From a virus, in IMG/VR virus record IMGVR_UViG_3300043444_000140, positions 43,036 through 107,035 of that record: a stretch of DNA of 64,000 nucleotides; one strand, written 5' to 3'. Shown piece after piece: positions 10,272 to 51,951 of the stretch; position 1 is the first letter of the stretch; each line of letters starts with the position of its first letter. The notes beneath the pieces were generated by a model. The model saw nothing but the letters and a program-made list of their open reading frames with translations. It made no database searches and was not told the origin of the DNA. The translations under genes were made by a program, and so were the position numbers.

Positions 10272-13200
10272 ATGGCTGATTCCCAGACTAATATCAATAT
10301 AAATATTGATACCAGTCAAGCCCTAGCAAACCTGCAGGCTTTGCAGTCTCAGATATCAGCCTTCCAAACCTCGATGGCTCGTGGCACTGCCACGCAAGCA
10401 GCAAACGCTGCCAAACTAAGACAAAACCTAATAAACGACATCAATGCAACTAAAAAGTTTGCAGCAGGTATCACAGATATCAAGACCACTACAGAGTCGT
10501 TTACAACCTCACTTGAGAAAAACAAGTTCTCAATGGGGCAATACTTTAAGTATGCTGGTGGTGCAACAAAGAATTTCGGTAAACTATTCAAAACCGAAAT
10601 GGCAACTATTGATAAGGTTGCTCGTGAACGTGTCAAAGACCTACAGACCCAATACATCCAACTAGGTCGTGACGCAAACGGTGCCATGAAGGCAATTTCC
10701 GTAAGACCACTAGTTCTTGACATGGAAAACCTGGGAACCAAAACAGCCATCGCTGCCCAGAAACAACAGATTCTAAACCAACTCCTAAAGCAGGGGTCAA
10801 CAAACATGCTCAACTGGGGTAAGAACACCCAGTGGGCAGGTCGTCAGTTGATGGTTGGTTTTACAGTTCCTCTAACTATGGCAGGTACTGCAGCAGCCAA
10901 AGCATTCATGGACATGGAGCAGGCTGCAATTAAGTTTAGCAGGGTATACGGAAGTTTTGGAACAACTACTAAAGACGTAGACGCAATGGTAGACTCAGTA
11001 AAGAGACTAGCCTCCGAGTTTACAAAGTACGGTGTTGCGGTGTCAGACACAATGACCATGGCTGCAGATGCTGCAGCAGCAGGTAAAGAGGGCGTTGAAC
11101 TATTAGAGCAGGTAACTAACGCAACCAGGCTTGCAATTCTTGGTAACGTAGATCAGCAACAAGCACTGGAAACAACAATGTCTCTAACAAATGCGTTTGG
11201 TATTGCTGCAGAAGAACTCACAGGGAAGATCAACTTCCTTAACGCAGTTGAAAACCAAACCGTTACCGCCATTGAAGACCTTACAATTGCTATTCCAAAG
11301 GCTGCTCCAGTTATTCAGCAACTTGGTGGAGACGTAGAAGACCTAGCATTCTTCCTAACAGCAATGAAGGAAGGTGGAATTAACGCATCAGAAGGTGCTA
11401 ACGCACTTAAGTCTGGTCTTGCATCTTTGATTAATCCAACCAACAAGGCATCTGAGTTCCTGCAGAGTTTTGGCATTAACGTAAAGAACATCGTTGAGTC
11501 AAACATGGGAGACGTTAAGGGTCTAGTTGTTGAGTTTGCATCAGCCCTCGACACCCTAGATCCACTAAACCGTGCACGTGCCATCGAACAGATGTTTGGT
11601 AAGTTCCAGTTCTCACGTCTATCAACATTGTTCCAGAACGTAATTGACGAGGGTAGCCAGGCAAACAAGGTTCTGGGGCTTACAAGGGCAACCTCTGAAG
11701 AATTGGCAATCCTATCTGAGCGAGAGTTGAAGAAGGTTGAAAGTTCTCCAATGTTCAAGTTCCAGAAGTCAATCGAAGACATCAAGGCAAAACTTGTTCC
11801 AATTGGAGAAGCATTCCTAAAGGCTATTACTCCTGTTATTGATTTCGTAGGAAAGTTCCTAGACGGATTTAATAAGATGTCCGAGGGTGCAAAGAGTTTC
11901 TGGATTACAACCACAGCAATCCTTGCTGGTGTTGGTCCAGCACTTCTAATGACAGTTGGTCTTGTTGCTAACGGTATTGCAAACCTTATTAAGATGTTTG
12001 CATCTATCAAGTCATTCATTAACAGAACTTCGCAAGATACGAATGCTTTGGGTGAATCAACCTCATACATGACCGCAGAGCAGATCAGAGCAGCAGCGGT
12101 CGCTGCATCACTTGAGCAGGTACACCAAACCCTAGAACAAAGATTTACATCAGAAGCAGCCTCAGTAGACAAACTGACGCAGGCTTACGGAAGAAACATC
12201 GCAGCACAATCTGCATACAGTAACGCAAACCTTATTCCAACAACTCCAGTTAGGGGTGCAAAGAAATTTGCAACTGGTGGATTTGTGTCTGGTCCTGGAA
12301 CAGGAACGTCGGATTCAATCCCTGCCATGCTGTCAAATGGCGAAGCAGTTATCCCAGCAAAGTCAGTTGCACAAAACCCTGACCTAGTTAGAGGCTTGAT
12401 TGCAGGAAACGTTAAGGGTTACTCTCAAGGTGGAATTGCTAATGGCAAGGCGGTCGTAGCCTTTGGTGCACACCAACCATTCACAGTCGCTCACGAGATG
12501 ATCGCAAGAATGGGTATGGATATGGCTGCCGAGTCAGGTGCCACATTCAAGCAGTTCTCAACTGCCCAGGGTAAGTCGAAGAGATCTCTACTCACTGACG
12601 ACCTAAAGAAGAAACTTATCCAGGAGTCTATTGGTATAACTCCAGACATTACCAAGAACCCATTCACCCTGATGGAGTCCCTATCTGCACAAGGTATCAA
12701 GGACGTAACCCTACTTCTTGGTCAAGACAGAATGGCTGCTGGAGTATTCGACAAGGCAGCAGCAGACTACGGAATTACTCTACGCAAGGTTGCTATCCCT
12801 AGAGATCCAGGATCACCATCTGGCACCGAGACAAGACTAGCAATTTCAAACAACAACACCAGAAGATATCAGGAACTAATTGCCTCTGGTGCATCTCAGG
12901 CGACCAAGGATGAAGTATTTAAGCAGATGAAGTCTGCCATGTCAATGCCAAAGATGGCTAAGGGCGGTATCGTTTCTGGACCTGGAACAGGAACCTCAGA
13001 TTCAGTTCCAACTCTGCTATCTCGTGGCGAAGCGGTAATCCCTGCTAAGTCGGTAGCAAGCAATCCAGAACTAGTAAGAGGACTGATTGCAAATAACATT
13101 CCAGGATTCAGCGAAGGCTTTGACTCGACAGGACTAATAAGTGCTGCTATGGCTAAGTATCGTGGATCAAAGCCCGAAGTATTCCAGGCTCAGTTTGAAA

Positions 13201-16200
13201 GAGAACTTGAAGACATTCTCAAAACAACTGGAGATACTCAAACAATGCTACTTGAGCAACTTCAAAAGTACGTAGATACAACAAAGACTACTGCAAAAGC
13301 AACCATGAAGAGGTTCATGTCTCAAAACGAAGAGCAGGGGAAAAACCTAAGACCGTTATACAACAGGAAGGCTGCACAACAGGCTGGAGGAGACTTTGCT
13401 CACGTAGAAGATAGCAGGGAAGTTTCTGCACAGTATGTTCTAGACAACAGCCCAAACCTTCAGGCAGGGCACAGAGAGAGACTGGAAAGACTAGTTGCAA
13501 ATAATCCAGATTATAAGGTTATGGCTGGAAGTGGCTTGGGCTTTACTCAGTCAAATGCACTTAATCTAAAAATGAGCAGAGGGAAAAAGAGTGCTCCTGT
13601 AGAAGAATTTTTGGCAGATTTTGAATCAAGAGGTGTCGGAAAATGGACCCAGAGTGCTGAGATTGCTGGTCTTAAGATGGCAGATATTTCTGACGAACTA
13701 AAGATTTACGACGACGCACTTGCTGCTGGGGTAAGGCAATGGCAAGGAATGAATCCAACTCTTGAGTTGACCCAGCAAGAGTTTGCAAACATAGAGCGTA
13801 ACGTTAGAACAACTATCGCACCACAAATACCAGTTGTCGCTCAGGCTTTTGGAGATCTTGCAAATGAACTACATGATCTAAGATACCTTGTGGGAGAAAA
13901 GGAATTTGCAGCAACTGGAATTAAGAAGAACCCATATAGACAGTTCCCAAGAAAGGGCAAAAAATCCGCAACTGATGCATTGTCTCCAGTGCCACTAAGC
14001 GAAATGCCACTAACACTTTCAAATGAATTTGCAGATGAAGCAGCGGTACAGGCACAGACAAAGTCTCCATCTAAGAGAACACGCAAGGTAGCAAAAGACA
14101 CTGTTGATGGATACGTTCTTGAACTTGAGAATGGTGAAGCAAGAGTTGCAGAAGCAGCAGCCACAGCAGAAAAGAAGCGTGGTAAGATGGCTGGCATTGG
14201 CGACAAGGCATCTGGGTTCTTTGCAAGAAGAAAGCAACAGGCTGCACTAGACAAGCAGATGGCTGCAGAAAGAACTGCCATTGCGTCTGAGTTGCTTCTA
14301 GCAACCGATAAGGAGTACGGGGCACTTGCTGCACAAAGACAACTCTTAAACAGAAAGGTAACACTAACTGACGCAGAGTATGCTGACCTATTAAAGACCA
14401 TCAACTTGATGGGGGTAAAGGAAGCAGAGATTGCTACCGACATCAAGAACAATGGTGCTGAGTCTAAGGTACTTAAAGAGAGAATTGCCCTTGCTGCAGA
14501 ACGTGGCATTGCAATTAATGCTGAACAGGCTGCAAACCTAAAGGAACAAAAACTAAGTCGTCGTGAAAGACTGGGCAACTTCGTCAGGGGTGGTGCTGGA
14601 AGAATGTCTGGAATCGGCATGACAGCATCTATGGTTGCTGGCTCATTGACGATGATTCCTGGAGCAATTGGAGAAATGGCACAGAGCATTACCCCAGTAA
14701 TTGGTGGCTTGTCTATGATGTCTATGATGATTCAGGGTCCAGTTAGTGCTGGTATCGTAGGACTAGTCGCTGCCATCGGTGCAGTTGTTTATGGATTTAT
14801 GCAATACAACGCATCAATTGACAAGGGTATTGACAAGGCTCTTGCATTTGGAGATGCTCTAGGAAGCGGTACAAAGGCTATGCAGGGCTTGGCAGAGTTT
14901 GCTGGTAACGTAACCGCATCAGAAGTCCTAGATAGACGTAGAACTCAGGCTGTAAACCCATATCAGGTTGTAAGCGGTAAGACGACCTTTGGAGAGTCAT
15001 ACCTAGAGTCTGATGGTGGCAAGGCAATGGCTAAGGCTATCGGAGACCAGGCTAAGGTTTCTGGTAAGGCTGGCGTTGGTGGAAACATGAAGAACCAACT
15101 AGTATCTGCTGTTCTTTCTGGGGCATTGGGTGCAGCACAGGCTAGAAGCATTGCAGTTAATCTTGGTAGAGAACTTGGCGACGAAGAACTGGGTATTAGA
15201 GTTGCTGGAGAAATTGCAGAACTTGTGGGTCCAAATGGAGAAAACGTTCTTAAGGATGGCTTGGCTATTAGGGTCAAGATGATGCAAGAAACTAGAGGTC
15301 AGATTGGAAGTTCTGCAGCAAACCTAAACCAAATGGGTGGCTTTACAGGAACAGAAATGCTTCAGACTGGTGGTGGCATCGCAGCAGGTGCAGGTGCTGG
15401 AGCCGTTGCAGGTGCAGTGATTGGATCATTCCTTGGACCAATTGGAACTGGTGTTGGGGCTATTGTCGGAACTATTGCAGGTGGAATCACTGGTGGTCTT
15501 CTAGGTGCTCAAGAACATGCAGAACGTCTGGGGTATCTAGCAGGAGCAACCGTATCTATTCAGTCAACTGCACTAGAGCAACAAAAGCAAATGCTAGACT
15601 CTCTAGAACTAGACTACGAGAAGCGTATTGAGGCTGCCAAGGCTGCTGGCGACACCGCAAAGGCAGATGAACTTCAGAACAAGTTGATTGCTGAAAGACA
15701 AAATCTTCTAAAGCAGAACGCACTCACCCAGCAAACAATTACTGATTCGTTTAAGAATTCACAATACCAGAATGAGATGATGGCTGGTGTAGACAAGGCT
15801 ATCGAGAAAAAGTACAAAGACACCCCAATGGAGGACATCGCCAAGGTCGCAAGAGACAAACTAGGTGGCATCCAAAATAGAGAACAGCAATTCACCATGA
15901 AGATGCTTCTCAATACAAACGTAGATCCATTGCAGATGCTTGCCATTACAGACATCATGGGCACCGACCAATCAGCAATCTCTAAGGTTCTAAACATTAA
16001 TGCAAACCTTGGTGGATCAAACCTAAACCAGGTAATGGCAATCTCTGGACTATTTACTGACCAAAATGGCAAGCCAGCCACCCAAATTCAAAAAGACTTC
16101 ATTATCAGGATGTCTTCCGTTACAGACGGAGAGCAAGCAAACAAGTTGATGACTCTATACTCAGAACTTGGAAAGTCTGGTATGGGATGGGTAAATGCTT

Positions 16201-18968
16201 CGGTACTTGTTGACTTTGTATCAAAGAACCCAGCACTCGAAACCAAGTTGATGAATGATATCCAAGAGATCAAAGATCTTCGAGGCAATAAACTTTCAGT
16301 AGACATTGTGTCAAAGGCAAGTATCTTGAATGCAGACGAGATGGCAATCCTTAGAGATGACATGGAGTACTTCAATAGCATTGACACTAAAGAAGGACAA
16401 CAACTATACTTGCAGACCGTTGCAACATATTCTGGAGTTGCAAAGATTGATGACCCAGGATTCCAGTCTTGGCTAGCAGCCGAGGGTAAGGCGTACAGGG
16501 CAGACTCTTATGGATGGATCAAGTATGTAGAGTGGCTAGCACAGAGAGCAACCAACACGAGAATTGGTGCCAATGCCTTTGCAAAGGACCCTAACGATAC
16601 TCCTAGCAGCACAAGCAGTGGTCCATCAGCATCTTGGCTAGACGATTACGTTAAGGGCGTTAGAGACCTAACAAATGCTTCTCAGGGTCTAACAGTTGGC
16701 TATGCAGCCTCGGCAAAGGCTTTAGATGCTTTTGCAAAGAAGAGTTCAAGTTTTAAGAATTCATTTAATGGTCTTGCCAATAACCTATATGCCTCTGGTA
16801 TTAGCCAGGACATCATTGACAACATTCTTGGTATGCCAAAGGAAGAAGCCGAAAAAGAAATGAAGCGATTCTTTGACAAGAATGGCAAGGTAACAGAATT
16901 CCTAAAGAGGCTTCAAAAAACAGCAGCAATCACCAGAATTGCCAAAACAGTAGAGTCTGGACTGCAGTCAACAAGGTCAATCTATGACAGGGTGGATGCA
17001 ACAAAGGCACTAGCCCTAGGCAATAAGAACGCAGCACTAACCTCAGAAATGCTTGCTGATTCAGATATGGTTGTTGCCCTTGCAGGTGTAAAACTTATTG
17101 GCAACCTAAAGGATCAGAAGGATGCTGTAGAGAAGTTGACCAAGGCAAAACTTGCAAGCCTTGCTATGGACAGACTGTCTAAGGGTAAGACTCAGAACGA
17201 AATTGATGATGCTCAAATCAAGATTGACGTTCTAGAGGCTGAAAACAACATCTACCAAAATGGACTAGACATTATTTCCAAGAAGGCAGAAAAGATTGCA
17301 GAAGTTTACGATCGCCAAATCAAGGCACTCCAAGAGGTAAAGTCTGTAAACGACGAAATTTCAAGACAAAAGCAGGGCGAACTAGACATTGCGGATGCAC
17401 TATCTCGTGGTGACATTGGTGCTGCTGCAAAGGCTGCCCAACAACTAAGAGCACAAAATGCACAGGCTGCTGCAGAGGCACAAATGAAGGCTCTAGAAGA
17501 TGCAAAGCAGAGAGCAATGGACTCAATAACTGTAGAGATTAATGGTCAAAAACTAACAAGAGCAGACCTTGAGCAGAAGATGTATGATATCCAACTCCAG
17601 GTTCTTGAGATTAGAAAAGACGAAATTGTTCAAAACGAACTAATTCTTGCACAACAAAGACAAAGTTTAAACAGCCTTATTGCTCAAACAGCAGAGCAGA
17701 TTAAGAGAAATGCTGAAGCAGGCAAGCCAATTACCCAAACCATTACTAAGGTCATTAAGACTGTCAGTTCTGGTAGTGGTGGCAATGGCGGAGGAAATCC
17801 AAATACAACTAATAACAACGATCCAAAAACAGAACTACCAACAACAATAACTCCACCAACCGCCAAGAGTTTGCTTGGTATTGGAACAAGCAAAGCAAAA
17901 GACTCGTCAGTAATTAAGAGCATGGATCCAAAAACAAGCAGTGACAAAGCCATCAAGGACTTTGGAACATTGTTTGCCGAAGGAGATAAGAGTGGGTTCA
18001 CAAACTATGCAACAGATGCGATTGCCAAGCGAGCACTAAGTGCAGACAAGTATAAGGACTGGAAAGCATGGTTTGAAAAGTATTCTGCAGCAGAGACCAT
18101 GGTCTCTTCGCTATACGGTACGAATGCAAAGACTGTTCTTGGAAGCATTAAAACTGGAACAAGAAACAAAGAAAATATTAACAATATTGCTACAAGCATG
18201 TACAATGCTTATGGTGCCAAAGTAACAGGGGAGCAAAAAACCGAAGGCTTTGCAGACCTGTCTCCAGAACTTCGTGGAGCACTTAACTATCTGGTAACCC
18301 TAAATAGCAGTTTCCAGGCAAACAAGCAAGAACTTGCAACCGCTACAAGCACCATTAAGGGTTATAAGTCAGCATATGAAAAGATTGACAGTCTTGCATC
18401 TATGAGAAAAACCTGGAGTGACGCTAAGGGTGCAGCAAAGAAGAATACAGAATATCAAAAACTAATAGATGCTTATGGAGCATCCTTCGATTCAGATGTT
18501 CAGAAATACCTAACTTCTAGCAACTTGATGAAGCAAAATGTGTCCAACGCATATTCAACCAGGAAAGCACTGATAGACGCAAAATACAAAGAGTCAGACT
18601 TTTCTTGGATTCCAGGATACTTCTCTGGAATTGTGACACAAAACCCTGCATACAATGCAGATGTGAATAAGATTATTCCATCTAAGATTAAGTACTACTC
18701 TGTAGGAGATCTTGCAAAGGGCACCGACGTTGTCCCTGCAATGCTAACACCAGGTGAGTTTGTGGTCACTCAGCCAGCAGTTAAGAACTTTGGGGTAGAC
18801 AATCTAAGGGCAATCAATAGTGGCACCTACGGCGGAGATTCAGTGTATAATTATAGTGTCAATGTAAATGTCTCTAATACAGGTGCTAATGCAAATGATA
18901 TTGCCAGAACCGTAATGACACAGATTAAGCAAATTGACGCACAAAGACTTAGGAGCAACAATCTATAA
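10272..18968 (+). CDS. Tape measure protein with inserted nucleotidyltransferase-like domain
   Basis: 2898 residues. It sets tail length and is ejected with DNA. Residues about 190-420 are the TP901-type tape-measure core (NWGKNTQWAGRQLMVGFTVP). Hydrophobic segments lie near 541-580, 1440-1515 and 1699-1745, with long coiled coils between. A 46-residue motif (GPGTGTSDSIPAMLS, GEAVIPAKSV) occurs at 668-713 and 897-942, and a shorter relative near 2813. Between the first two copies, residues 727-866 resemble a nucleotidyltransferase: FGAHQPFTVAH with Thr738 and His741, DVTLLLGQDR near 811-820, and AISNNNTRR near 857-865. The ATG at 10272 follows AGAGGTG; an out-of-frame ATG at 10268 ends after three codons. 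It ends by overlapping the next gene. Confidence 0.9.
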   Translation: MADSQTNININIDTSQALANLQALQSQISAFQTSMARGTATQAANAAKLRQNLINDINATKKFAAGITDIKTTTESFTTSLEKNKFSMGQYFKYAGGATKNFGKLFKTEMATIDKVARERVKDLQTQYIQLGRDANGAMKAISVRPLVLDMENLGTKTAIAAQKQQILNQLLKQGSTNMLNWGKNTQWAGRQLMVGFTVPLTMAGTAAAKAFMDMEQAAIKFSRVYGSFGTTTKDVDAMVDSVKRLASEFTKYGVAVSDTMTMAADAAAAGKEGVELLEQVTNATRLAILGNVDQQQALETTMSLTNAFGIAAEELTGKINFLNAVENQTVTAIEDLTIAIPKAAPVIQQLGGDVEDLAFFLTAMKEGGINASEGANALKSGLASLINPTNKASEFLQSFGINVKNIVESNMGDVKGLVVEFASALDTLDPLNRARAIEQMFGKFQFSRLSTLFQNVIDEGSQANKVLGLTRATSEELAILSERELKKVESSPMFKFQKSIEDIKAKLVPIGEAFLKAITPVIDFVGKFLDGFNKMSEGAKSFWITTTAILAGVGPALLMTVGLVANGIANLIKMFASIKSFINRTSQDTNALGESTSYMTAEQIRAAAVAASLEQVHQTLEQRFTSEAASVDKLTQAYGRNIAAQSAYSNANLIPTTPVRGAKKFATGGFVSGPGTGTSDSIPAMLSNGEAVIPAKSVAQNPDLVRGLIAGNVKGYSQGGIANGKAVVAFGAHQPFTVAHEMIARMGMDMAAESGATFKQFSTAQGKSKRSLLTDDLKKKLIQESIGITPDITKNPFTLMESLSAQGIKDVTLLLGQDRMAAGVFDKAAADYGITLRKVAIPRDPGSPSGTETRLAISNNNTRRYQELIASGASQATKDEVFKQMKSAMSMPKMAKGGIVSGPGTGTSDSVPTLLSRGEAVIPAKSVASNPELVRGLIANNIPGFSEGFDSTGLISAAMAKYRGSKPEVFQAQFERELEDILKTTGDTQTMLLEQLQKYVDTTKTTAKATMKRFMSQNEEQGKNLRPLYNRKAAQQAGGDFAHVEDSREVSAQYVLDNSPNLQAGHRERLERLVANNPDYKVMAGSGLGFTQSNALNLKMSRGKKSAPVEEFLADFESRGVGKWTQSAEIAGLKMADISDELKIYDDALAAGVRQWQGMNPTLELTQQEFANIERNVRTTIAPQIPVVAQAFGDLANELHDLRYLVGEKEFAATGIKKNPYRQFPRKGKKSATDALSPVPLSEMPLTLSNEFADEAAVQAQTKSPSKRTRKVAKDTVDGYVLELENGEARVAEAAATAEKKRGKMAGIGDKASGFFARRKQQAALDKQMAAERTAIASELLLATDKEYGALAAQRQLLNRKVTLTDAEYADLLKTINLMGVKEAEIATDIKNNGAESKVLKERIALAAERGIAINAEQAANLKEQKLSRRERLGNFVRGGAGRMSGIGMTASMVAGSLTMIPGAIGEMAQSITPVIGGLSMMSMMIQGPVSAGIVGLVAAIGAVVYGFMQYNASIDKGIDKALAFGDALGSGTKAMQGLAEFAGNVTASEVLDRRRTQAVNPYQVVSGKTTFGESYLESDGGKAMAKAIGDQAKVSGKAGVGGNMKNQLVSAVLSGALGAAQARSIAVNLGRELGDEELGIRVAGEIAELVGPNGENVLKDGLAIRVKMMQETRGQIGSSAANLNQMGGFTGTEMLQTGGGIAAGAGAGAVAGAVIGSFLGPIGTGVGAIVGTIAGGITGGLLGAQEHAERLGYLAGATVSIQSTALEQQKQMLDSLELDYEKRIEAAKAAGDTAKADELQNKLIAERQNLLKQNALTQQTITDSFKNSQYQNEMMAGVDKAIEKKYKDTPMEDIAKVARDKLGGIQNREQQFTMKMLLNTNVDPLQMLAITDIMGTDQSAISKVLNINANLGGSNLNQVMAISGLFTDQNGKPATQIQKDFIIRMSSVTDGEQANKLMTLYSELGKSGMGWVNASVLVDFVSKNPALETKLMNDIQEIKDLRGNKLSVDIVSKASILNADEMAILRDDMEYFNSIDTKEGQQLYLQTVATYSGVAKIDDPGFQSWLAAEGKAYRADSYGWIKYVEWLAQRATNTRIGANAFAKDPNDTPSSTSSGPSASWLDDYVKGVRDLTNASQGLTVGYAASAKALDAFAKKSSSFKNSFNGLANNLYASGISQDIIDNILGMPKEEAEKEMKRFFDKNGKVTEFLKRLQKTAAITRIAKTVESGLQSTRSIYDRVDATKALALGNKNAALTSEMLADSDMVVALAGVKLIGNLKDQKDAVEKLTKAKLASLAMDRLSKGKTQNEIDDAQIKIDVLEAENNIYQNGLDIISKKAEKIAEVYDRQIKALQEVKSVNDEISRQKQGELDIADALSRGDIGAAAKAAQQLRAQNAQAAAEAQMKALEDAKQRAMDSITVEINGQKLTRADLEQKMYDIQLQVLEIRKDEIVQNELILAQQRQSLNSLIAQTAEQIKRNAEAGKPITQTITKVIKTVSSGSGGNGGGNPNTTNNNDPKTELPTTITPPTAKSLLGIGTSKAKDSSVIKSMDPKTSSDKAIKDFGTLFAEGDKSGFTNYATDAIAKRALSADKYKDWKAWFEKYSAAETMVSSLYGTNAKTVLGSIKTGTRNKENINNIATSMYNAYGAKVTGEQKTEGFADLSPELRGALNYLVTLNSSFQANKQELATATSTIKGYKSAYEKIDSLASMRKTWSDAKGAAKKNTEYQKLIDAYGASFDSDVQKYLTSSNLMKQNVSNAYSTRKALIDAKYKESDFSWIPGYFSGIVTQNPAYNADVNKIIPSKIKYYSVGDLAKGTDVVPAMLTPGEFVVTQPAVKNFGVDNLRAINSGTYGGDSVYNYSVNVNVSNTGANANDIARTVMTQIKQIDAQRLRSNNL
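12273..12410 (+). repeat. Tape-measure repeat, copy 1
   Basis: Encodes residues 668-713 of the tape measure (start TGGFVSGPGTGTSDS, end VRGLIAGN). It is closely matched by copy 2 at 12960-13097. Such Gly-rich SDxIPAMLSxGE motifs are common in actinophage tape measures. Confidence 0.85.
12960..13097 (+). repeat. Tape-measure repeat, copy 2
   Basis: Encodes residues 897-942 (start KGGIVSGPGTGTSDS, end VRGLIANN). Together with copy 1 it brackets the nucleotidyltransferase-like segment. Confidence 0.85.
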
Positions 18969-32557: not shown

Positions 32558-35500
32558 ATGAGTTACGCTGGACTACACGTTCACACTCACTACTCGCTTT
32601 TCGATGGTATTGCGACACCACAGGAATATGTGGACAGGGCTGTAGCACTTGGTATGCCAGCCATTGCCATCACAGACCACGGTTCGCTATCTGGGCACCG
32701 TGAGATGTATCGTGCTGCAAAGACTGCAGGAATCAAACCTATTCTTGGAATTGAGGGGTACATTGCGAATGATCGCTTTGACCACGAAGACAAGAAAGAG
32801 AAGAACGACCCCCTAGACCTTAACTACAACCACTTGATTATTCTTGCCAAGAATGCCAAGGGTCTAGAGAACCTTAACAAACTTAATGAACTTGCCTGGA
32901 CAGAGGGTTTCTACAAGAAACCTCGCATGGACTGGAAGATTCTAGAGCAGTACAAAGATGGACTAATCATCACTTCTGGCTGTCTATCTGGCTACCTAGC
33001 CAAAGCAATTGAGTCAGACAACCTGGCTGCTGCCAAAACCCACCTCCAGTGGGCACAGGAGACGTTTGGAGACGATTACTACATTGAGGTAATGCCACAC
33101 AACCCTAAAGAGATTAATGACGTTATTTTGGCTCTGGCGGACGAATTCGGTATCAAGCCAATCGTTACTCCTGACTGCCACCACTCTGACCCAAGCCAGA
33201 AAGAAATCCAGGAACTTAAACTAATCCTAAACTCATACTCAAACAAGGCTGAAAAGGGTGCTACCTACGAAGGCTCTACCAAGTATGAGAACTTGATGGA
33301 TAAACTAGACTACCTGTACGGTGCAGACCGTCAGATGTCATTCAACAAGTTTGAGATTCACCTATTGTCTGATGAAGAGATGCACAATGCTATGGGTGCT
33401 CAGGGTATTACACGTCAGGACATGTACGACAACACTGTCGAGATTGTTAACAAGATTGAAGACTATGACATTCAGGACCACACAGACCTACTTCCAGTAC
33501 AGTACCAGAATCCAAATGAGGAACTTTACACTCTTGCACTAGAGGGGCTCCGTGCCAAGGGTCTAGCAGACAAGCAGGAGTATCTAGATCGCCTAGACGA
33601 AGAACTAGGAATTATTAAAGACAAGAACTTTGGTCCATATTTCTTGGTTGTACGCTCTATGATTGCGTGGGCTAAGAAGGAAGACATCATGGTGGGTCCA
33701 GGTCGTGGTTCTGCTGCTGGCTCGTTGCTCTGCTATGCCCTGGGCATTACAGACATTGACCCTATCGTTCACGGTCTGCTGTTCTTCCGTTTTATTAACC
33801 CAGAACGTAACGACTTCCCAGATATTGATACTGATATTCAGGATAACCGTCGTGAAGAAGTAAAGGACTACTTGGTTCGCCAGTATCGTCACGTTGCATC
33901 CATCGCCACATTCCTTGAGTTCAAGGGTAAAGGCATGATCCGTGACATTGCTCGTGTGCTAAACATTCCTCTAGTAGACGTTAACAAAGTTCTTAAACTT
34001 GTAGACGACTGGGACGACTACCTACGTTCGAAGTCAACTCAAGAGTTCCGTGAGAAGTACCCAGAGATTGAGATTTATGGAGAGCAACTCCGTGGTCGTA
34101 TTCGTGGTACTGGTATTCACGCTGCAGGTGTTGTGACATCTAAGGAGCCTATCTTCAAGTTTGCTCCACTAGAGACTCGTACAACTCCAGGTAGCAAGGA
34201 CCGTATCCCAGTCGTTGCGGTAGACATGGAAGAAGCAGAGCGTATTGGTCTTATTAAGATTGACGCACTGGGTCTAAAGACTCTATCTGTTATTCAGGAC
34301 ACTACCAAGATTATTGAAGAGCGTTATGGCAAGAAGATTGATCTTCACGATATTGACATGGAAGACAAAAACATCTATTCCATGCTCTCTGACGGATATA
34401 CCAAGGGTGTGTTCCAGTGTGAAGCGACACCATATACTAATCTGTTGGTAAAGATGGGTGTCAAGAACTTTGCAGAACTTGCAGCATCTAACGCTCTGGT
34501 TCGTCCAGGTGCTATGAATACCATCGGTAAGGACTACATTGCTCGTAAGCATGGTAAGCAGAACATCTCATATCACCACCAAGTGATGAAGGCGTTCACG
34601 GCTGAGACATACGGATGTATTCTATACCAGGAACAGGTTATGCAGGCTTGTACAGAACTTGGCGGTATGACGATGGCTGAGGCTGACAAGGTTCGTAAGA
34701 TCATCGGTAAGAAGAAGGATGCCAAAGAGTTTGACCAGTTTAAGGACAGGTTCGTAAAGGGTGCATCTCAATTCTTGCGACCAGAAGTTGCAGAAGAACT
34801 ATGGCACGACTTCGAGGCTCACGCAGGGTACTCGTTCAACAAGTCTCACGCTGTAGCATACTCAACGCTATCATACTGGACTGCATGGTTGAAGTACTAC
34901 TACCCAATTGAGTTCATGTTTGCTCTTCTAAAGAACGAGAAAGACAAGGATGCTCGTACAGAGTATCTAATTGAGGCAAAGCGTATGGGCATTCCAGTTC
35001 GCTTGCCACACATTAATGAGTCAGACATTGACTTTAAGATTGAGGGTAAGGGAATTAGGTTTGGACTATCAGCCATTAAATTCATTTCAGATAACATTGC
35101 TAGTAAGTACATTGCTGCTCGTCCATTTGGCTCGTACAAAGAACTTGAGGAGTTTACTTTTGGTAAGGGTAATGGTGTTAATTCTCGTGCTCTTCAGGCT
35201 CTTCGAGTTGTTGGTGCTGCAACCTTTGAGGACAATCCACGCAACGACGATGAAATTCGTGAAAACCTTTACGAGTATCTCAACCTACCAGAATTCAATG
35301 TATCAATTCCACAACACTACCACGCATTTATAAATGACGTAGAAGAGTTTGAGGAAAAGGGATCATTCGTTATCATGGGTATGGTAAAGGAGATTAAGCG
35401 TGGCAAGGGCTGGAGCCGTGTAGAGGTTCTAGATAAGACTGGTAGTGTTGGTATCTTCGACGAAGAGCAGACCGCTATTGAGGCAGGAAGAACCTATCTT

Positions 35501-35839
35501 CTTCTCGCTAGCGACAACAGGATTGTTACCGCAATCCCTGCTGATGAAATCAAGGGTAATGAATCGGCACTGATTAAGTTCTTGAACTACAGACAACTTC
35601 CATTCAAGGAAGAAGAAATGTTTGTGGTGTCATTCAAGTCACGCATTACCAAGGCTGGAAAGAAGATGGCATCTCTCACACTAGCGGACAGTGGAAGAGA
35701 CCTGCACTCAGTTACGGTATTCCCAACAGCCTACTCAAAGGCATATATGAAGATTGACGAGGGTAAGGCATACAAGTTTACTTTCGGTAAAACAAAAGAT
35801 GGAACAACGATTATGGAGGATGTAGAAAATGTTCGATGA
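32558..35839 (+). CDS. dnaE: DNA polymerase III alpha-like (family C)
   Basis: 1093 residues, the usual DnaE size range. The PHP domain is at the N-terminus (LHVHTHYSLFDG with His7, His9 and His11). The palm carries GPGRGSAAGSLLCYALG (about 380-396) and FPDIDTDIQDNRRE with Asp422, Asp424 and Asp426. A helix-hairpin-helix and an OB-like region (FVIMGMVKEIKRGKGWSRVE) complete the C-terminus. It replicates the phage genome; no separate exonuclease is visible beyond PHP. The last 11 bases overlap the MazG-like gene. Confidence 0.92.
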   Translation: MSYAGLHVHTHYSLFDGIATPQEYVDRAVALGMPAIAITDHGSLSGHREMYRAAKTAGIKPILGIEGYIANDRFDHEDKKEKNDPLDLNYNHLIILAKNAKGLENLNKLNELAWTEGFYKKPRMDWKILEQYKDGLIITSGCLSGYLAKAIESDNLAAAKTHLQWAQETFGDDYYIEVMPHNPKEINDVILALADEFGIKPIVTPDCHHSDPSQKEIQELKLILNSYSNKAEKGATYEGSTKYENLMDKLDYLYGADRQMSFNKFEIHLLSDEEMHNAMGAQGITRQDMYDNTVEIVNKIEDYDIQDHTDLLPVQYQNPNEELYTLALEGLRAKGLADKQEYLDRLDEELGIIKDKNFGPYFLVVRSMIAWAKKEDIMVGPGRGSAAGSLLCYALGITDIDPIVHGLLFFRFINPERNDFPDIDTDIQDNRREEVKDYLVRQYRHVASIATFLEFKGKGMIRDIARVLNIPLVDVNKVLKLVDDWDDYLRSKSTQEFREKYPEIEIYGEQLRGRIRGTGIHAAGVVTSKEPIFKFAPLETRTTPGSKDRIPVVAVDMEEAERIGLIKIDALGLKTLSVIQDTTKIIEERYGKKIDLHDIDMEDKNIYSMLSDGYTKGVFQCEATPYTNLLVKMGVKNFAELAASNALVRPGAMNTIGKDYIARKHGKQNISYHHQVMKAFTAETYGCILYQEQVMQACTELGGMTMAEADKVRKIIGKKKDAKEFDQFKDRFVKGASQFLRPEVAEELWHDFEAHAGYSFNKSHAVAYSTLSYWTAWLKYYYPIEFMFALLKNEKDKDARTEYLIEAKRMGIPVRLPHINESDIDFKIEGKGIRFGLSAIKFISDNIASKYIAARPFGSYKELEEFTFGKGNGVNSRALQALRVVGAATFEDNPRNDDEIRENLYEYLNLPEFNVSIPQHYHAFINDVEEFEEKGSFVIMGMVKEIKRGKGWSRVEVLDKTGSVGIFDEEQTAIEAGRTYLLLASDNRIVTAIPADEIKGNESALIKFLNYRQLPFKEEEMFVVSFKSRITKAGKKMASLTLADSGRDLHSVTVFPTAYSKAYMKIDEGKAYKFTFGKTKDGTTIMEDVENVR

Positions 35840-36164: not shown

Positions 36165-36388
36165 TGACAGTAACAGTATATACAAAGCCAGCATGTGTAC
36201 AGTGCGATGCTACAAAGCGAACGCTAGACAAGTTGGGGGTTTCTTACGAGGCTATTGACGTAACCACAAACCAGGATGCATTTGACATGCTAGTTGAAAA
36301 GGGATTTAAGGCTATGCCTGTAGTCAATGCTGGCGACGAATGGTGGTCAGGCTTTAACCCAGAGAAGATTAATGGGTTGGTGCTCTAA
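36164..36388 (+). CDS. nrdH: NrdH-like glutaredoxin
   Basis: 74 residues with a CVQC redox motif at residues 12-15 (TKPACVQCDATKRTL), the cis-proline region AMPVV and WWSGFNPEKI. NrdH reduces the class Ib ribonucleotide reductase. Its partners NrdI, NrdE and NrdF are encoded at 43749-47210, separated by recombination and packaging genes. Confidence 0.88.
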   Translation: MTVTVYTKPACVQCDATKRTLDKLGVSYEAIDVTTNQDAFDMLVEKGFKAMPVVNAGDEWWSGFNPEKINGLVL

Positions 36389-37401
36389 TGACAACTATGG
36401 AAGAAGCCCTAGCATTACTAGATCCAAAGATTAGAAAGAGACTGTCTAGCGGAGTAGGATTTAAAACCGAATTCCAGAAGACTCCTAGTTTTGGTCTAAA
36501 CCGTGCACTTTTCGGTGGACTACCTCTTGGCAGACAGATTCTTATTTGGGGTAGCAAGTCATCTGCAAAGTCATCTCTATGTCTTCAAATGATTGCTCTT
36601 GCTCAAGAAGAGGGTAAACTGTGTGCATGGATTGACGCTGAGATGTCTTACTCAGAAGACTGGGCAAAGCAACTTGGGGTAGACACAGAGAACCTTATCG
36701 TATCTCAGGCTCGTACAATCAATGAAATGGTAGACGTGGGTACAGCCCTAATGAACGCAGGTGTAGACCTGATTGTTGTTGACTCGATTACATCGCTTCT
36801 ACCTGCAATCTATTTTGAAAAGGGTACTGATGAACTTAAGGAACTGGAGAACACTAAGCAAATCGGAGCGGAGTCAAGAGATTTCAGCAATGCTTGGAAG
36901 ATGCTTAACTACGCTAACAATAAAGTTAAGCCTACTATGCTTGTTCTTATTAGTCAGTCTAGGAACAATATTAGTGCTATGTATACTAGTCAGCAGCCAA
37001 GTGGTGGGCAGGCTACTAAGTTTTATTCTTCTACTGTTATCAAGTTGTTTTCCTCGGAGTCAGACAATCAAGCGATTAAGGGCAAGATTGCTGTCGGTGA
37101 TAAACTAATTGAAGAGAAGGTTGGTCGCAAAATCCGTTGGGAAGTTCAGTTCTCAAAGACTTCTCCTGCCTTCCAGTCTGGAGAGTACGACTTCTACTTC
37201 AGAGGTCCTCTAATCGGCATTGACAGCGTGGGAGACCTTGTTGACACTGCAGAGATGATGGGTATTGTAGAGCGTACAGGAGCCTGGTACATCCTACCAG
37301 ATGGCTCTAAGATCCAGGGTAGAGAAGCATTCGTTAATCGTGTACGTGAAGACCTAGATCTTCAGGATGAAATTAAGGCAAAGGTAAATGGCGAAGTATA
37401 A
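36388..37401 (+). CDS. RecA/UvsX-like recombinase
   Basis: 337 residues with a RecA core. The P-loop reads GSKSSAKSS at residues 55-63; the residue before Lys is Ala60 instead of the usual Gly. Walker B is VDLIVVDSITSLLP (about 126). LVLISQSRNNISAMYTSQQP and SGGQATKFYSS resemble the L1/L2 DNA-binding loop regions. It would catalyse strand exchange for recombination-dependent replication or repair. Coupled to nrdH by a one-base overlap, it overlaps the next gene by 14 bases. Confidence 0.82.
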   Translation: MTTMEEALALLDPKIRKRLSSGVGFKTEFQKTPSFGLNRALFGGLPLGRQILIWGSKSSAKSSLCLQMIALAQEEGKLCAWIDAEMSYSEDWAKQLGVDTENLIVSQARTINEMVDVGTALMNAGVDLIVVDSITSLLPAIYFEKGTDELKELENTKQIGAESRDFSNAWKMLNYANNKVKPTMLVLISQSRNNISAMYTSQQPSGGQATKFYSSTVIKLFSSESDNQAIKGKIAVGDKLIEEKVGRKIRWEVQFSKTSPAFQSGEYDFYFRGPLIGIDSVGDLVDTAEMMGIVERTGAWYILPDGSKIQGREAFVNRVREDLDLQDEIKAKVNGEV

Positions 37402-44159: not shown

Positions 44160-47210
<3,051 letters not shown>

Positions 47211-47305: not shown

Positions 47306-49177
47306 ATTAAAAAACCCCAAAGATTTTTCCTAGCGTTGTTACTAGCCTTTGCACCACTTCTTGTAGCATCTATGGCTTTTGCAGAGACAAGAGCGGAGTA
47401 CGATGCAGTCGTGGCTTCAGCACAGGCTAAAGTTTCTGCTGCCCAGGAGGCTCTCAGTAGGGCACAAGAGGCTTATAACTCAGCAGTTGGTGCTGGAGTA
47501 TCCCTAGATTCGCAAATAGCACAGGCAGAGCAGGCACTAGGTGTAGCCCAAGCAGCCTACGACCAGTCCCAAATTCCAGATCCAGCGTGGACCAGACCGC
47601 TAAAAGAGGAAATCTATACTGTTAGTGTTCCGTACACAGTTCAGGTTCCATATACAGTCATAGAACAAACTACGTCTCAGGTGTCTAGAACCATTCAGGT
47701 TCCACACACAGAAACGGTAACGACAACAAGCCAGGTTGCTCGTACAACATATGTTACCAGCGGTGGAATAACTGCAGAAATGTATAATCGACGAGGGTAT
47801 AATCAAGCACCACCGCTACCATATGCAGGAGAGACCCCAGTCCTAACGACAACAGTGCCAAACATTGACTTTCAGTGGGGTGGAGGGTATATCCTTCAGG
47901 AAGGTAACGTGTGGTATGGGGAAGACGTTGTTGTCAAGTTTACTGGCAACCTGTTGTTTCCAGCAGATGGACAGTATCAGTTCTATGCCCCAGCAGACGA
48001 TGGTGTCATCTTTGACCTTGCTGGTATGAGGCTGATCAGCGACTGGGTAGACAAGGGTGGAGGAGGATCAGTTACCCAGCCCGTCAACATTATGGGCGGT
48101 GTTCTTTATCCTTTCACACTGTACTACTATGAGAATGGTGGTGGAGCATGGGTTCAACTAAATGCTAAATTAGTTAGTGATGCAAATTTCCAGGTAGTTC
48201 CAGCAGCATGGTTAGGAACACAGGTAACGGAGACAACCACATATGAAGACGTAACAACCACGTCTGAAGTAATTGTCTACACAGAAGAGGTGGTGATTGA
48301 CACGGTTATCACCGATGTTGAGGTAACTCTTTTCAGAGACGAAGTTGCATACAGAGAAGAGGAGCGAATCCGCTTAGTTCCAGATGAAGATGCAGAGCAC
48401 CCAAAGATCAAGAATCCAGATCTCCTCCCAGCGATATCTGACGCACAGTCTAATCTAAACAATCTTAAGAGTTCTAAGGCTCAAAACTCAGGTATAATAG
48501 AAGCAGCATCTGCCGATGTTAGCACAAAACAACAGGAGTTAAATGTCGCTCAACAAGAATTGGAAGCCATTCCACCATTCAGAGAGCCAACACCTACGCC
48601 TACGGAGACCGAGAGCCCTTCTCCAGAGCCAACAGAAACTGAGCCTGAACCGCTACCAGAGCCAGAGCAAACAGAAACCCCCAAGCCAGAACCAGAACCT
48701 GAGTTACGAGTAGAAGAAGCGGTATCTGAGATTCAGAATCTGGTAGAAGTAGCACCAGAAGAACTGACAGATGCCCAGGCAGAACAACTTGTCGCAGCAG
48801 CCCTCGTTGTATTTGAAACAGCAGAGCAAGGCTCACCAGCATATGAACAGGCACTAGAGGCACTTGCCGTTGCTGCTATTGCAGATGACCCACAATTGCC
48901 AGCAGAGTTAGCAGCCATTCCTGGAGCAGAAGCAGTTCTAGAAACATTTAACGCCATTGGAAACGTGGGGGCTGACATGTCTCCAGAGGTTCGTGAAGAA
49001 GCAGAACAAACGGTTATCGCATCTGTTATTGCTACAGGTGCAGCAGTAAATGCAACGGTTGCAGCAGCCACAACTGCAGCAGCCACAACAACTTCGTCAT
49101 CAGGTGGTTCGTCTGGTGGCGGTGGTGGAGCATCAGGATCAAGTTCTGGTGGCAGAACAAATAGGAAGGTGAACTAA
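47306..49177 (+). CDS. Secreted PA14-domain protein with coiled coils, likely AUU start
   Basis: About 623 residues if translation starts at ATT 47306, eight bases after AAGGAG (47292-47297). This start gives a complete signal peptide (KKPQRFFLALLLAF, APLLVASMAFA). The first canonical alternative, TTG 47336, lacks both the basic n-region and a ribosome site. Residues about 35-90 form a coiled coil. Residues about 155-310 form a PA14 lectin-like domain (DGQYQFYAPADDGVIFDLAG, YPFTLYYYENGGG). Then come helices, a Pro/Thr/Glu linker (PTPTETESPSPEPTETE) and a Gly/Ser-rich end. It probably sits on the cell or virion surface and binds a glycan. No wall-anchor motif is seen. Confidence 0.7.
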   Translation: MKKPQRFFLALLLAFAPLLVASMAFAETRAEYDAVVASAQAKVSAAQEALSRAQEAYNSAVGAGVSLDSQIAQAEQALGVAQAAYDQSQIPDPAWTRPLKEEIYTVSVPYTVQVPYTVIEQTTSQVSRTIQVPHTETVTTTSQVARTTYVTSGGITAEMYNRRGYNQAPPLPYAGETPVLTTTVPNIDFQWGGGYILQEGNVWYGEDVVVKFTGNLLFPADGQYQFYAPADDGVIFDLAGMRLISDWVDKGGGGSVTQPVNIMGGVLYPFTLYYYENGGGAWVQLNAKLVSDANFQVVPAAWLGTQVTETTTYEDVTTTSEVIVYTEEVVIDTVITDVEVTLFRDEVAYREEERIRLVPDEDAEHPKIKNPDLLPAISDAQSNLNNLKSSKAQNSGIIEAASADVSTKQQELNVAQQELEAIPPFREPTPTPTETESPSPEPTETEPEPLPEPEQTETPKPEPEPELRVEEAVSEIQNLVEVAPEELTDAQAEQLVAAALVVFETAEQGSPAYEQALEALAVAAIADDPQLPAELAAIPGAEAVLETFNAIGNVGADMSPEVREEAEQTVIASVIATGAAVNATVAAATTAAATTTSSSGGSSGGGGGASGSSSGGRTNRKVN

Positions 49178-49886: not shown

Positions 49887-50755
49887 TGAAAAAACTAATT
49901 AGCATTGCGTCAGCAGTTGTTCTAGCACTATCTGTTTCTCCAGCACAAGCAAATGAAAATACATCCGTAGTGATTATTGATAGTGGGTTTGATAGTGAAC
50001 TTCTTAATCCAATTAAAGAAGTTTGCATCCTAGTAACCAAGAATTGCAACAACGGCACAGCATTTGACGACTCGATCGGAGCATCTGATACAGGTCTGAC
50101 ATTGATGTCAAACTGGAAATCGGAATGGGCACATGGAACCAAGATGGCAGACATCGTACGCCAGATCAATCCGAGTGCAGACATTATTCTTATTCGTAAT
50201 GCTATCGTAACACCAAGAGGTGCAGTAAATATTGGCGGTACCAAAGAGTTTGAATTGTCATTGCAATGGGTAAAAGACAATGCCAAAAAGTATAACATCT
50301 CTGCAGTATCTTTCTCACGTGGATCAAACACGTGGACCAAAACTGGCAAGGGTTGCCCGATTGATGCAGGCATTCAGTCTAAGATTGTAGACTTGCAATC
50401 GCTTGGTGTTGCTACAGTAATCGCTGCTGGAAATAACGGAGACAAGGTGAACGTTAGTTATCCTGGTTGTATTCCAGAGGCTGTTACCATCAGTGGTATT
50501 TACTCACAGAACTACACTCCAAAGATTTGGTCTTCGTATCGTGAGACTCGTGGCACTAACTCTGGATTTCTAACGGACTTCTTTGCAATGGGCAATTTCA
50601 AGACTATTGCTGGACCAGTCGCTGAGTCCACATCATCTTCTGCTGCTGCTTTTGCAGGGTATTGGAGCAAGGTCTACAACGCATCATACCAGCAAACCTA
50701 TAACAGTATCCTGCAGTCTAGCAAAAACAAGTTTGTGGATGTTATTAATCAATGA
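49886..50755 (+). CDS. Secreted subtilisin-like serine protease
   Basis: 289 residues. Signal peptide MKKLISIASAVVLALSVSPA, cut near AQA-NE. The S8 triad is readable: Asp32 in VVIIDSGFDSE, His83 in WAHGTKMADIV, and Ser250 in ESTSSSAAAFAGYW (family consensus GTSxxxPxxxG; here the Gly, Pro and His positions differ). The oxyanion Asn183 is in AAGNNGD. It would cleave extracellular or surface proteins, perhaps cell-wall proteins during lysis or adsorption. It lies between the holin and a glycosyltransferase and overlaps the latter by four bases. Confidence 0.78.
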   Translation: MKKLISIASAVVLALSVSPAQANENTSVVIIDSGFDSELLNPIKEVCILVTKNCNNGTAFDDSIGASDTGLTLMSNWKSEWAHGTKMADIVRQINPSADIILIRNAIVTPRGAVNIGGTKEFELSLQWVKDNAKKYNISAVSFSRGSNTWTKTGKGCPIDAGIQSKIVDLQSLGVATVIAAGNNGDKVNVSYPGCIPEAVTISGIYSQNYTPKIWSSYRETRGTNSGFLTDFFAMGNFKTIAGPVAESTSSSAAAFAGYWSKVYNASYQQTYNSILQSSKNKFVDVINQ

Positions 50756-51951
50756 CCAATCTATTCTTAAGTGGACCGTTTGACTATAAGGGTAAGGGCT
50801 GGGGCTATGCCCACTATTCCTATGGCTTTGCCATGGAATCTTTTGCGGAGGTAGCGACTAAAGAGGATTCTGTGTGTGGATACTTCTCGTATCCGTTTAC
50901 TCTTGGATCTGCCAAAACCCAAATGAGGCAGTACAAGGATCCAGTCAGCATATCCTTTTTGCCACCAGACGTGGCTCTACTAATACCAAGACAGAAAAAC
51001 ATCTGTGTGTTTGCATGGGAGTTTGATAGGTTGCCAGTAAAAAGCGATGGGAACAATGGTATCTTTAAAAAGGATTATGCTTCTACACTAAAGAAGTTTG
51101 ACCATGTCATTACGCTATCGTCCTACTCCCAGTCAGCCCTGAAGACGTATGGGATAGATTCTTTTGTGCTTCCTTCAGCAGTATCGCCAAAAGAGATTGA
51201 TCCTGGAGAGTCTATTGACGACTTGCCATGTTACACACTAAGCACAGTCTCAGACTATTACAAAGACCATGAGCCAGAATCATTAGCAAACTTGTTAGAC
51301 AAATCGGATCATGAAAAAAGATTCCTCTACATTCTTAACCCACACGACATTAGAAAGAACTTTGGCAACCTTGTTACGGCATTCGTAAAATTTAGACAGG
51401 AACATCCAGACGCAATTCTTTTGCTTAAAATGACTGCACAGGGAGATCTTGGGAAGTTGCAGGCAACCGCTTTTAGGAGAGAGTTTCCTTCATTCCCAGA
51501 AACAACGTTCGACAATGTTTATTTTATTCCACAAAAGTTGTCGGATAGCGAACTACAAATGCTAATTAACTCTTGTCAAAACTATGTGTCTCCTAGTCGT
51601 GCAGAGGGGCAGAACCTGCCATTATGTGAGGCTATGGTATCTGGCAGGGTATGCATAACTCCAGATCATACATCAATGAGTGATTACGTTACTAACGATT
51701 CGGCAATTATTCTTGAGTCCAATACCTGGATGATAGATGAATCTACGCACAAGTACAAAGACTTCTGGGGATTCTCATGGTTTAATGTGGGAGAACAGAC
51801 AATTCTTGATGCACTTAATCGGGCAATATCATTGACATCAGAAGAGAAAACTGCTATGCTTAATAAAGCAAAACAGAACGTAGAGAACTTTTGCTCACCA
51901 GAATCAGTTCTTCAAAAATGGCAACAAATAAAGTTGCAAATAGGAATCTGA
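50752..51951 (+). CDS. GT-B glycosyltransferase (group 1)
   Basis: 399 residues. The C-terminal nucleotide-sugar domain is clear: FLYILNPHDIRKNFGNLVTA, YFIPQKLSDSELQMLIN, and SPSRAEGQNLPLCEAMVSG, with the Glu pair typical of GT4. The N-terminal domain starts FLSGPFDYKGKGWGYAHY. It transfers a sugar, possibly to cell-surface or virion targets. It is coupled by ATGA to the secreted protease gene. The tRNA promoter lies inside its 3' end. Confidence 0.8.
   Translation: MTNLFLSGPFDYKGKGWGYAHYSYGFAMESFAEVATKEDSVCGYFSYPFTLGSAKTQMRQYKDPVSISFLPPDVALLIPRQKNICVFAWEFDRLPVKSDGNNGIFKKDYASTLKKFDHVITLSSYSQSALKTYGIDSFVLPSAVSPKEIDPGESIDDLPCYTLSTVSDYYKDHEPESLANLLDKSDHEKRFLYILNPHDIRKNFGNLVTAFVKFRQEHPDAILLLKMTAQGDLGKLQATAFRREFPSFPETTFDNVYFIPQKLSDSELQMLINSCQNYVSPSRAEGQNLPLCEAMVSGRVCITPDHTSMSDYVTNDSAIILESNTWMIDESTHKYKDFWGFSWFNVGEQTILDALNRAISLTSEEKTAMLNKAKQNVENFCSPESVLQKWQQIKLQIGI

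Follow-up and report, generated by a model that had tools for sequence, protein, structure and literature searches.

Exchangeable enzyme cassettes, among them a HIGH-superfamily nucleotidyltransferase, in the tape measure proteins of a siphophage clade

The DNA analyzed here is a stretch of 64,000 nucleotides (the window) that forms part of a 107-kb virus record. One ORF encodes a tape measure protein (TMP), the ruler that fixes tail length, of 2898 residues, with a PHROGs profile match to phrog_10030 (E 4.5e-97) and a Pfam PhageMin_Tail match at residues 249–443 (4.6e-25). Its neighbors are a portal, a head maturation protease, an Ig-domain protein of the major-tail-protein type and ORFs in the chaperone position, followed by minor tail proteins; the TMP itself is placed between the tail-chaperone-type ORFs and the distal tail genes. 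This gene order is that of Stanwilliamsviridae, as in Streptomyces phage Tomas. A search of one-per-species bacterial genomes with the TMP N-terminus found no relative. Elsewhere the window encodes a DNA polymerase III alpha-type polymerase (32558–35839), RecA (36388–37401), a ribonucleotide reductase small chain (46245–47210), a glycosyltransferase (50752–51951) and five tRNAs, as well as a 613-residue PA14-domain protein (47336–49177) that lies amid non-structural genes. The features of the TMP considered below are as follows.

10272..18968, + strand: TMP ORF, 2898 residues (PHROGs TMP families, Pfam PhageMin_Tail)
12276..12413, + strand: upstream copy of the GGFVSGPGTGTSDSIPAMLSNGEAVIPAKSV repeat, residues 669–714 (repeat family D1)
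12447..12944, + strand: HIGH-superfamily (cytidylyltransferase-like) nucleotidyltransferase (NTase), residues about 726–891 (PHROGs, AlphaFold2, Foldseek, and Pfam on homologues)
12462..12494, + strand: (H/T)xxH motif FGAHQPFTVAH, with T738 and H741 (alignment of eight TMP NTases)
12570..12581, + strand: GKSK lysine motif, residues 767–770, K770 invariant
12711..12731, + strand: LLLGQDR motif at the end of a core strand, residues 814–820; G817, D819 and R820 invariant
12819..12836, + strand: SxTxxR motif SGTETR, residues 850–855; S, T and R invariant (alignment A4)
12963..13100, + strand: downstream copy of the GGFVSGPGTGTSDSIPAMLSNGEAVIPAKSV repeat, residues 898–943 (repeat family D1)
13362..13937, + strand: AH domain, second domain of the cassette zone in the window (profile matches in 23 TMPs, alignment A8)
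14610..14798, + strand: hydrophobic membrane-type module at the point of return to the conserved TMP body
15369..15524, + strand: glycine zipper or hydrophobic hairpin, residues 1700–1751 (hydropathy and Pfam Gly-zipper_Omp, the latter at 25.0 bits against a cut-off of 25 bits)

On the evidence of profiles and a modeled fold, TMP residues 726–891 are firmly identified as an NTase of the HIGH superfamily. The isolated segment matched the PHROGs cytidyltransferase family phrog_3041 (E 4.1e-9) and phrog_395 (E 9.3e-5). The copy in the window fell below detection in Pfam and NCBIfam searches, and a PDB sequence search returned nothing useful. Homologous TMP copies at about 42% identity exceeded the 21-bit cut-off of Pfam CTP_transf_like (PF01467), with 40.1 bits for the copy in relative L090 and 27.4 bits for that in L086. 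Eight TMP copies align continuously, and the AlphaFold2 model derived from them (pLDDT 87, pTM 0.83) has the Rossmann-like alpha/beta fold of the superfamily. When the model was compared to the PDB with Foldseek, PPAT, FAD synthetase, NMNAT1 and NadD were the top matches (E 3e-5 to 1e-3, query TM 0.53–0.65); among the predicted viral proteins of BFVD, phage cytidyltransferase-like proteins were matched (E 2e-11, TM 0.83). The initial annotation had proposed a cytidylyltransferase-like domain at about residues 727–866. Family, profile and structure searches all confirm the domain, and its bounds are now placed at about 726–891 (nucleotides 12447–12944). None of the outcomes named beforehand as speaking against it (a coiled coil, a lysozyme-like plug or no NTase match) occurred; the first two are ruled out by the AlphaFold2 model together with the Foldseek comparison to the PDB. 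Chance resemblance of motifs is ruled out by the PHROGs matches, by Pfam on the homologues and by the BFVD structure match. An assembly artefact confined to a single contig is ruled out by the multiple carriers, since these come from independent metagenomes and the NTase is in frame in all of them.

The fold by itself names no substrate, because PPAT and FAD synthetase score as well as the NMN adenylyltransferases. This weighs against one specific reading, in which an NMN adenylyltransferase-type activity would restore NAD at entry and so counter NAD-depleting defenses. NMNAT1 and NadD are among the Foldseek matches, and HIGH-type NMN adenylyltransferases with a role in NAD salvage are known from phages (PMC9503650). 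However, no NAPRTase or Nudix gene is present in the 107-kb record, which is possibly incomplete, and with so few copies of the protein in each particle, little NAD could be regained. Genome content gives no support to NAD salvage as the obvious role, and we regard NAD restoration as very unlikely. The reading preferred here is a more general one: like PPAT, NMNAT and FAD synthetase, the domain would most likely use an NTP as the donor of an adenylyl or cytidylyl group and a phosphorylated small molecule as the acceptor.

The motifs of the domain were assessed in the alignment of eight copies. The four motifs quoted in the initial annotation are all in frame in the TMP ORF, at residues 731–741 (FGAHQPFTVAH), 770–781 (KRSLLTDDLKKK), 811–820 (DVTLLLGQDR) and 857–865 (AISNNNTRR). 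FGAHQPFTVAH is invariant except at one variable position. The last of the four had been read as the SxTxxR-type motif, which the alignment shows to be wrong: AISNNNTRR is a variable stretch just downstream of the true motif, SGTETR, whose counterpart in relatives is VSATKLR or VSSTKIR. Nine residues (T738, H741, K770, G817, D819, R820, S850, T852 and R855) are invariant in 8/8 copies at identities down to 42%. The substitution of TxAH for an HxGH-type motif had raised doubt about activity. The reading of T738 and H741 stands, and there is less cause for concern about a broken motif than had been suggested; T738, A740 and H741 are invariant in all copies, so that the threonine and the final histidine are kept and glycine is replaced by alanine. 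The L090 copy, which likewise has TxAH, reaches 40 bits against PF01467, the best Pfam score among the copies. In PPAT the first position is also threonine (T/HxGH), and the third position varies within the superfamily. A broken active site is not supported, and the motifs, which look intact, argue for an active enzyme.

Selection on the domain was compared to selection on other parts of the protein. In the comparison of the window with L001, dN/dS was 0.10 for the NTase, 0.21 for the C-terminal part of the TMP and 0.32 for the adjoining AH region, and between the window and L002 it was 0.06 for the NTase and 0.16 for the TMP N-terminus; these ratios are approximate because some comparisons come close to saturation at synonymous sites. 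Purifying selection acts more strongly on the NTase than elsewhere in the TMP. The invariant motifs and the selection bear on the possibility that the fold is non-catalytic and has been retained for structure only, to space or plug the tail lumen or to act as a folding unit there. The domain does sit in a structural protein, and TxAH departs from the commonest form of the motif, HxGH. However, a spacer accounts poorly for motif residues that are invariant when much of the remainder is not, or for selection exceeding that on the surrounding protein, and this explanation appears unlikely. A catalytic domain is preferred, and the fillings of the same zone in other TMPs, described below, bear on this choice as well.

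On either side of the domain lies a copy of a 138-nt repeat; the two copies are 73% identical (repeat search) and encode GG(F/I)VSGPGTGTSDS...GEAVIPAKSV...NP.LVRGLIA. In the close relative L004 the repeat is present once and the NTase is missing. Cassette profiles gave no match in three isolate Streptomyces-phage TMPs, and in the TMP of phage Tomas the N-terminal domain continues directly into a similar hydrophobic membrane-type module without a cassette zone. The description of the domain as inserted in the tape measure was therefore right, as the flanking repeats, the absence of the NTase from L004 and the absence of cassettes from the three Streptomyces-phage TMPs all indicate. The NTase belongs to a set of exchangeable cassettes found across related TMPs.

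Approximately 80 related TMPs from public viral contigs were compared. In these proteins a cassette zone of about 800 residues holds fillings that vary in combination and order. A kinase-like module (KIN) was present in 36, a DUF3626/ART-like module in 7, a HAD phosphatase in 4 and a GNAT domain in 2; AH and HN modules also occur in the zone. The NTase was found in about 9 distinct TMPs, a figure that is raised since NTase carriers were sought. The order of modules is KIN-NTase-GNAT in L002, KIN-HAD-GNAT in L005, KIN-AH-HAD in L007, ART-NTase-AH in L084 and NTase-HN-KIN in L086. Pfam matches in the zones include CTP_transf_like, HAD Acid_phosphat_B (1.7e-15) and HAD_PNKP, with weaker support for DUF3626 (3e-4) and GNAT. 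In the window, the TMP combines a single identified enzyme domain with the AH domain, which has near-invariant H, LN, F..W..RG..KW, D and R and gave no family match. The generalization of the cassette zone across these TMPs is well supported, and the finding is larger than first described: in place of one insert there is a cassette zone for several enzymes, shared by a large clade of phages.

Several further modules were observed. The DUF3626/ART-like module, with the pattern RPxYG...GD...YIE in its 7 TMPs, lies at L006:11792-12433, L023:10828-11433 and L093:18452-19027. In L023 and L093 it is near the TMP C-terminus, and its occurrence within the zone in some TMPs and near the C-terminus in others may indicate more than one docking site. 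The HN module (L086:10703-11266, and also in L012, L082 and L089) adjoins KIN or the NTase, and its conserved (A/S)H...N is suggestive of a candidate nuclease. A module of about 112 residues between HAD and GNAT (L005:13094-13429) recurs in the TMP of one other contig.

The KIN cassette, a family specific to TMPs, is found in relatives and not in the window, an example being L002:9089-9925. A KIN-profile search of viral contigs gave at least 430 stretches, from which the arrangement appears to be common in nature. Among the best 80 of these loci KIN lay within a long ORF in every case, and the TMP N-terminus was in frame with it in 78; the other two ORFs, each over 2200 residues, start at the edge of the fetched sequence. 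No isolate with a kinase-like or ART-like cassette was found, as tblastn of these cassettes in isolate phages gave no match. The AlphaFold2 model of KIN has a pLDDT of 94, and 31 copies share K64, E75, D145, D147, N152 and D160 without exception. Searches of Pfam, PHROGs and NCBIfam gave no match of note, and a PDB sequence search nothing useful. The best solved structures were protein kinases and PI4KIIalpha, at weak scores (E ~0.01, TM ~0.3). Given the invariant K/E/D/N residues and the weak structural matches, the module is termed kinase-like and no more.

These fillings bear in two ways on the spacer explanation raised above. The same zone in other TMPs holds unrelated domains or nothing recognized, which suggests that tail assembly requires no specific activity there. 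However, the HAD phosphatase cassettes carry the FDIDDTL motif and the kinase-like cassettes their invariant residues, a bias toward catalytic folds that would not be expected of spacers.

A mechanism is proposed in which a TMP with a docking zone carries exchangeable host-acting enzymes into the host at entry; we judge it evenly poised between right and wrong. The docking zone would lie between the conserved N-terminal domain and the membrane module, where enzyme cassettes could be gained, lost and swapped. The cassette would be in the virion because the protein that carries it is the TMP. In other siphophages, TMP trimers fill the tail with the C-terminus at the tip and are released on contact, and TMPs have been proposed to form a channel to the inner membrane (PMC13033339). 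Filling the tail lumen and leaving the particle ahead of the genome, the TMP described here would carry its enzyme to the host envelope. A glycine zipper of a kind shared with TMPs is required for translocation of a T6SS DNase effector into cells (PMC10240207). The glycine zipper and membrane segments of the TMP may bring the enzyme to the cytoplasm at the start of infection, so that the NTase would already be at work before phage gene expression begins; in related phages, cassettes of the kinase, ART, GNAT and HAD types would have the same early cytoplasmic action. Delivery of the NTase into the host is plausible; its catalysis, substrate, passage of the membrane and early role are proposed on inference.

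Kinases, NTases, GNATs and ARTs need ATP or another NTP, acetyl-CoA or NAD, which are found in the cytoplasm. Since the cassette types need these cofactors, the simplest reading is enzyme delivery into the cytoplasm at entry. The same consideration weighs heavily on the alternative that the cassettes have their targets in the cell envelope, outside the membrane, as the peptidoglycan hydrolases of other TMPs do. The enzyme domains found in published TMPs are all wall-cleaving, some TMPs having domains with peptidoglycan-cleaving activity (PMC6116005), and Streptomyces-phage relatives carry an M23 peptidase at the TMP C-terminus. However, the cofactors of the NTase, kinase, GNAT and ART types are not available outside the membrane, and no cassette zone matched a wall hydrolase in Pfam; an envelope role is highly improbable.

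A second alternative concerns timing. The NTase could work late in infection inside the cell that produces the particles, before or during assembly of the tail, for instance in the metabolism of nucleotides or cofactors, with its packaging in the tail being incidental. Synthesis of the TMP takes place in the cytoplasm at a late stage of infection, and cyanophages encode a free-standing relative of the NTase near replication and nucleotide genes. However, there is no obvious reason for fusing a metabolic enzyme to a few-copy, tail-locked protein, and the fusion of NTase and TMP is kept in every carrier found. A role in the producing cell is therefore improbable. Delivery at entry, the mechanism favored here, faces counter-points of its own. 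The enzyme might fail to cross the inner membrane, because the cassettes are N-terminal to the membrane module and the TMP C-terminus points towards the host. In addition, by analogy with another siphophage whose trimeric TMP has a channel of about 35 A (PMC13033339), there would be little room for three folded 18-kDa domains. Further points against it are the small number of distinct TMPs with the NTase cassette, about nine, and the weak structural matches behind the kinase-like assignment of the commonest cassette.

More broadly, the TMPs of this large, mostly uncultured siphophage clade may be a delivery chassis in which a repeat-bounded zone lets each tail inject its own effectors, a suggestion that is offered tentatively, as slightly short of an even prospect. 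If this is true, an NTase, a kinase, a HAD phosphatase, a GNAT, an ADP-ribosyltransferase and others would be injected ahead of the genome. A tail ruler that carries intracellular-type enzymes and swaps them from one relative to another would open a new route of delivery, and the length and variability of the TMPs of these phages would be easier to understand. The arrangement also makes it testable whether parts of TMPs enter the cytoplasm.

Several known systems resemble parts of this arrangement. The closest named relatives of the NTase, in sequence and in fold, are the free-standing cyanophage proteins annotated as 'cytitidyltransferase' (phrog_3041/phrog_395), such as gene 161 of Prochlorococcus phage Syn1 (189 residues); unlike the domain described here, these are separate genes amid replication and nucleotide genes and are not part of a tail protein. 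PPAT (CoaD), NMNAT/NadD and FAD synthetase (PDB 5o06, 1gzu, 2h29, 4uzf) share the HIGH-type fold and the (H/T)xxH and SxTxxR motifs. However, they are cellular cofactor enzymes with just 10–15% sequence identity to the NTase, and a substrate cannot be transferred from this resemblance. Enzymes internal to TMPs that act at infection are known from mycobacteriophage TM4, T5 pb2 and phiIPLA35 (PMC6116005), and the M23 peptidase TMPs of Stanwilliamsviridae also have an enzyme domain within the TMP. All of these are wall hydrolases acting outside the membrane, whereas the types found here are nucleotide- or protein-modifying; a literature search of open-licence papers turned up no TMP described as carrying enzymes of intracellular type. 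Polymorphic toxin systems likewise combine a constant carrier with swappable enzyme cassettes (PMC3482391), but their cassettes are C-terminal and those described here internal, and nothing here shows toxicity.

The nearest parallel is with the polyvalent proteins (Iyer et al. 2017, PMC5512222), large mosaic proteins of phages and conjugative elements with ART, kinase, GNAT and NTase domains that are proposed to enter the host with the DNA. Several unrelated enzyme domains per polypeptide are also seen in the TMP family (L002, L005 and L084). The two differ in their carrier, which is a TMP here (the term 'tape measure' is absent from the text of PMC5512222), in the NTase, which is of the Pol-beta type there and of the HIGH superfamily here, in the HAD phosphatase-type cassettes found here, and in the confinement of the TMP cassettes to one internal zone with flanking repeats. 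The top-ranking Pfam families in the cassette zones include neither of the polyvalent hub domains, the zincin-like peptidase and ArdC-N. Because these hub domains were not found and entry is an inference, the TMP is not filed as a polyvalent protein but is considered to work like one. Injected phage enzymes are known from heads, as in T4 Alt, the N4 RNA polymerase and the polyvalent proteins. The best explanation of the cassette-bearing TMP would be as a tail-borne counterpart of the injected polyvalent proteins.
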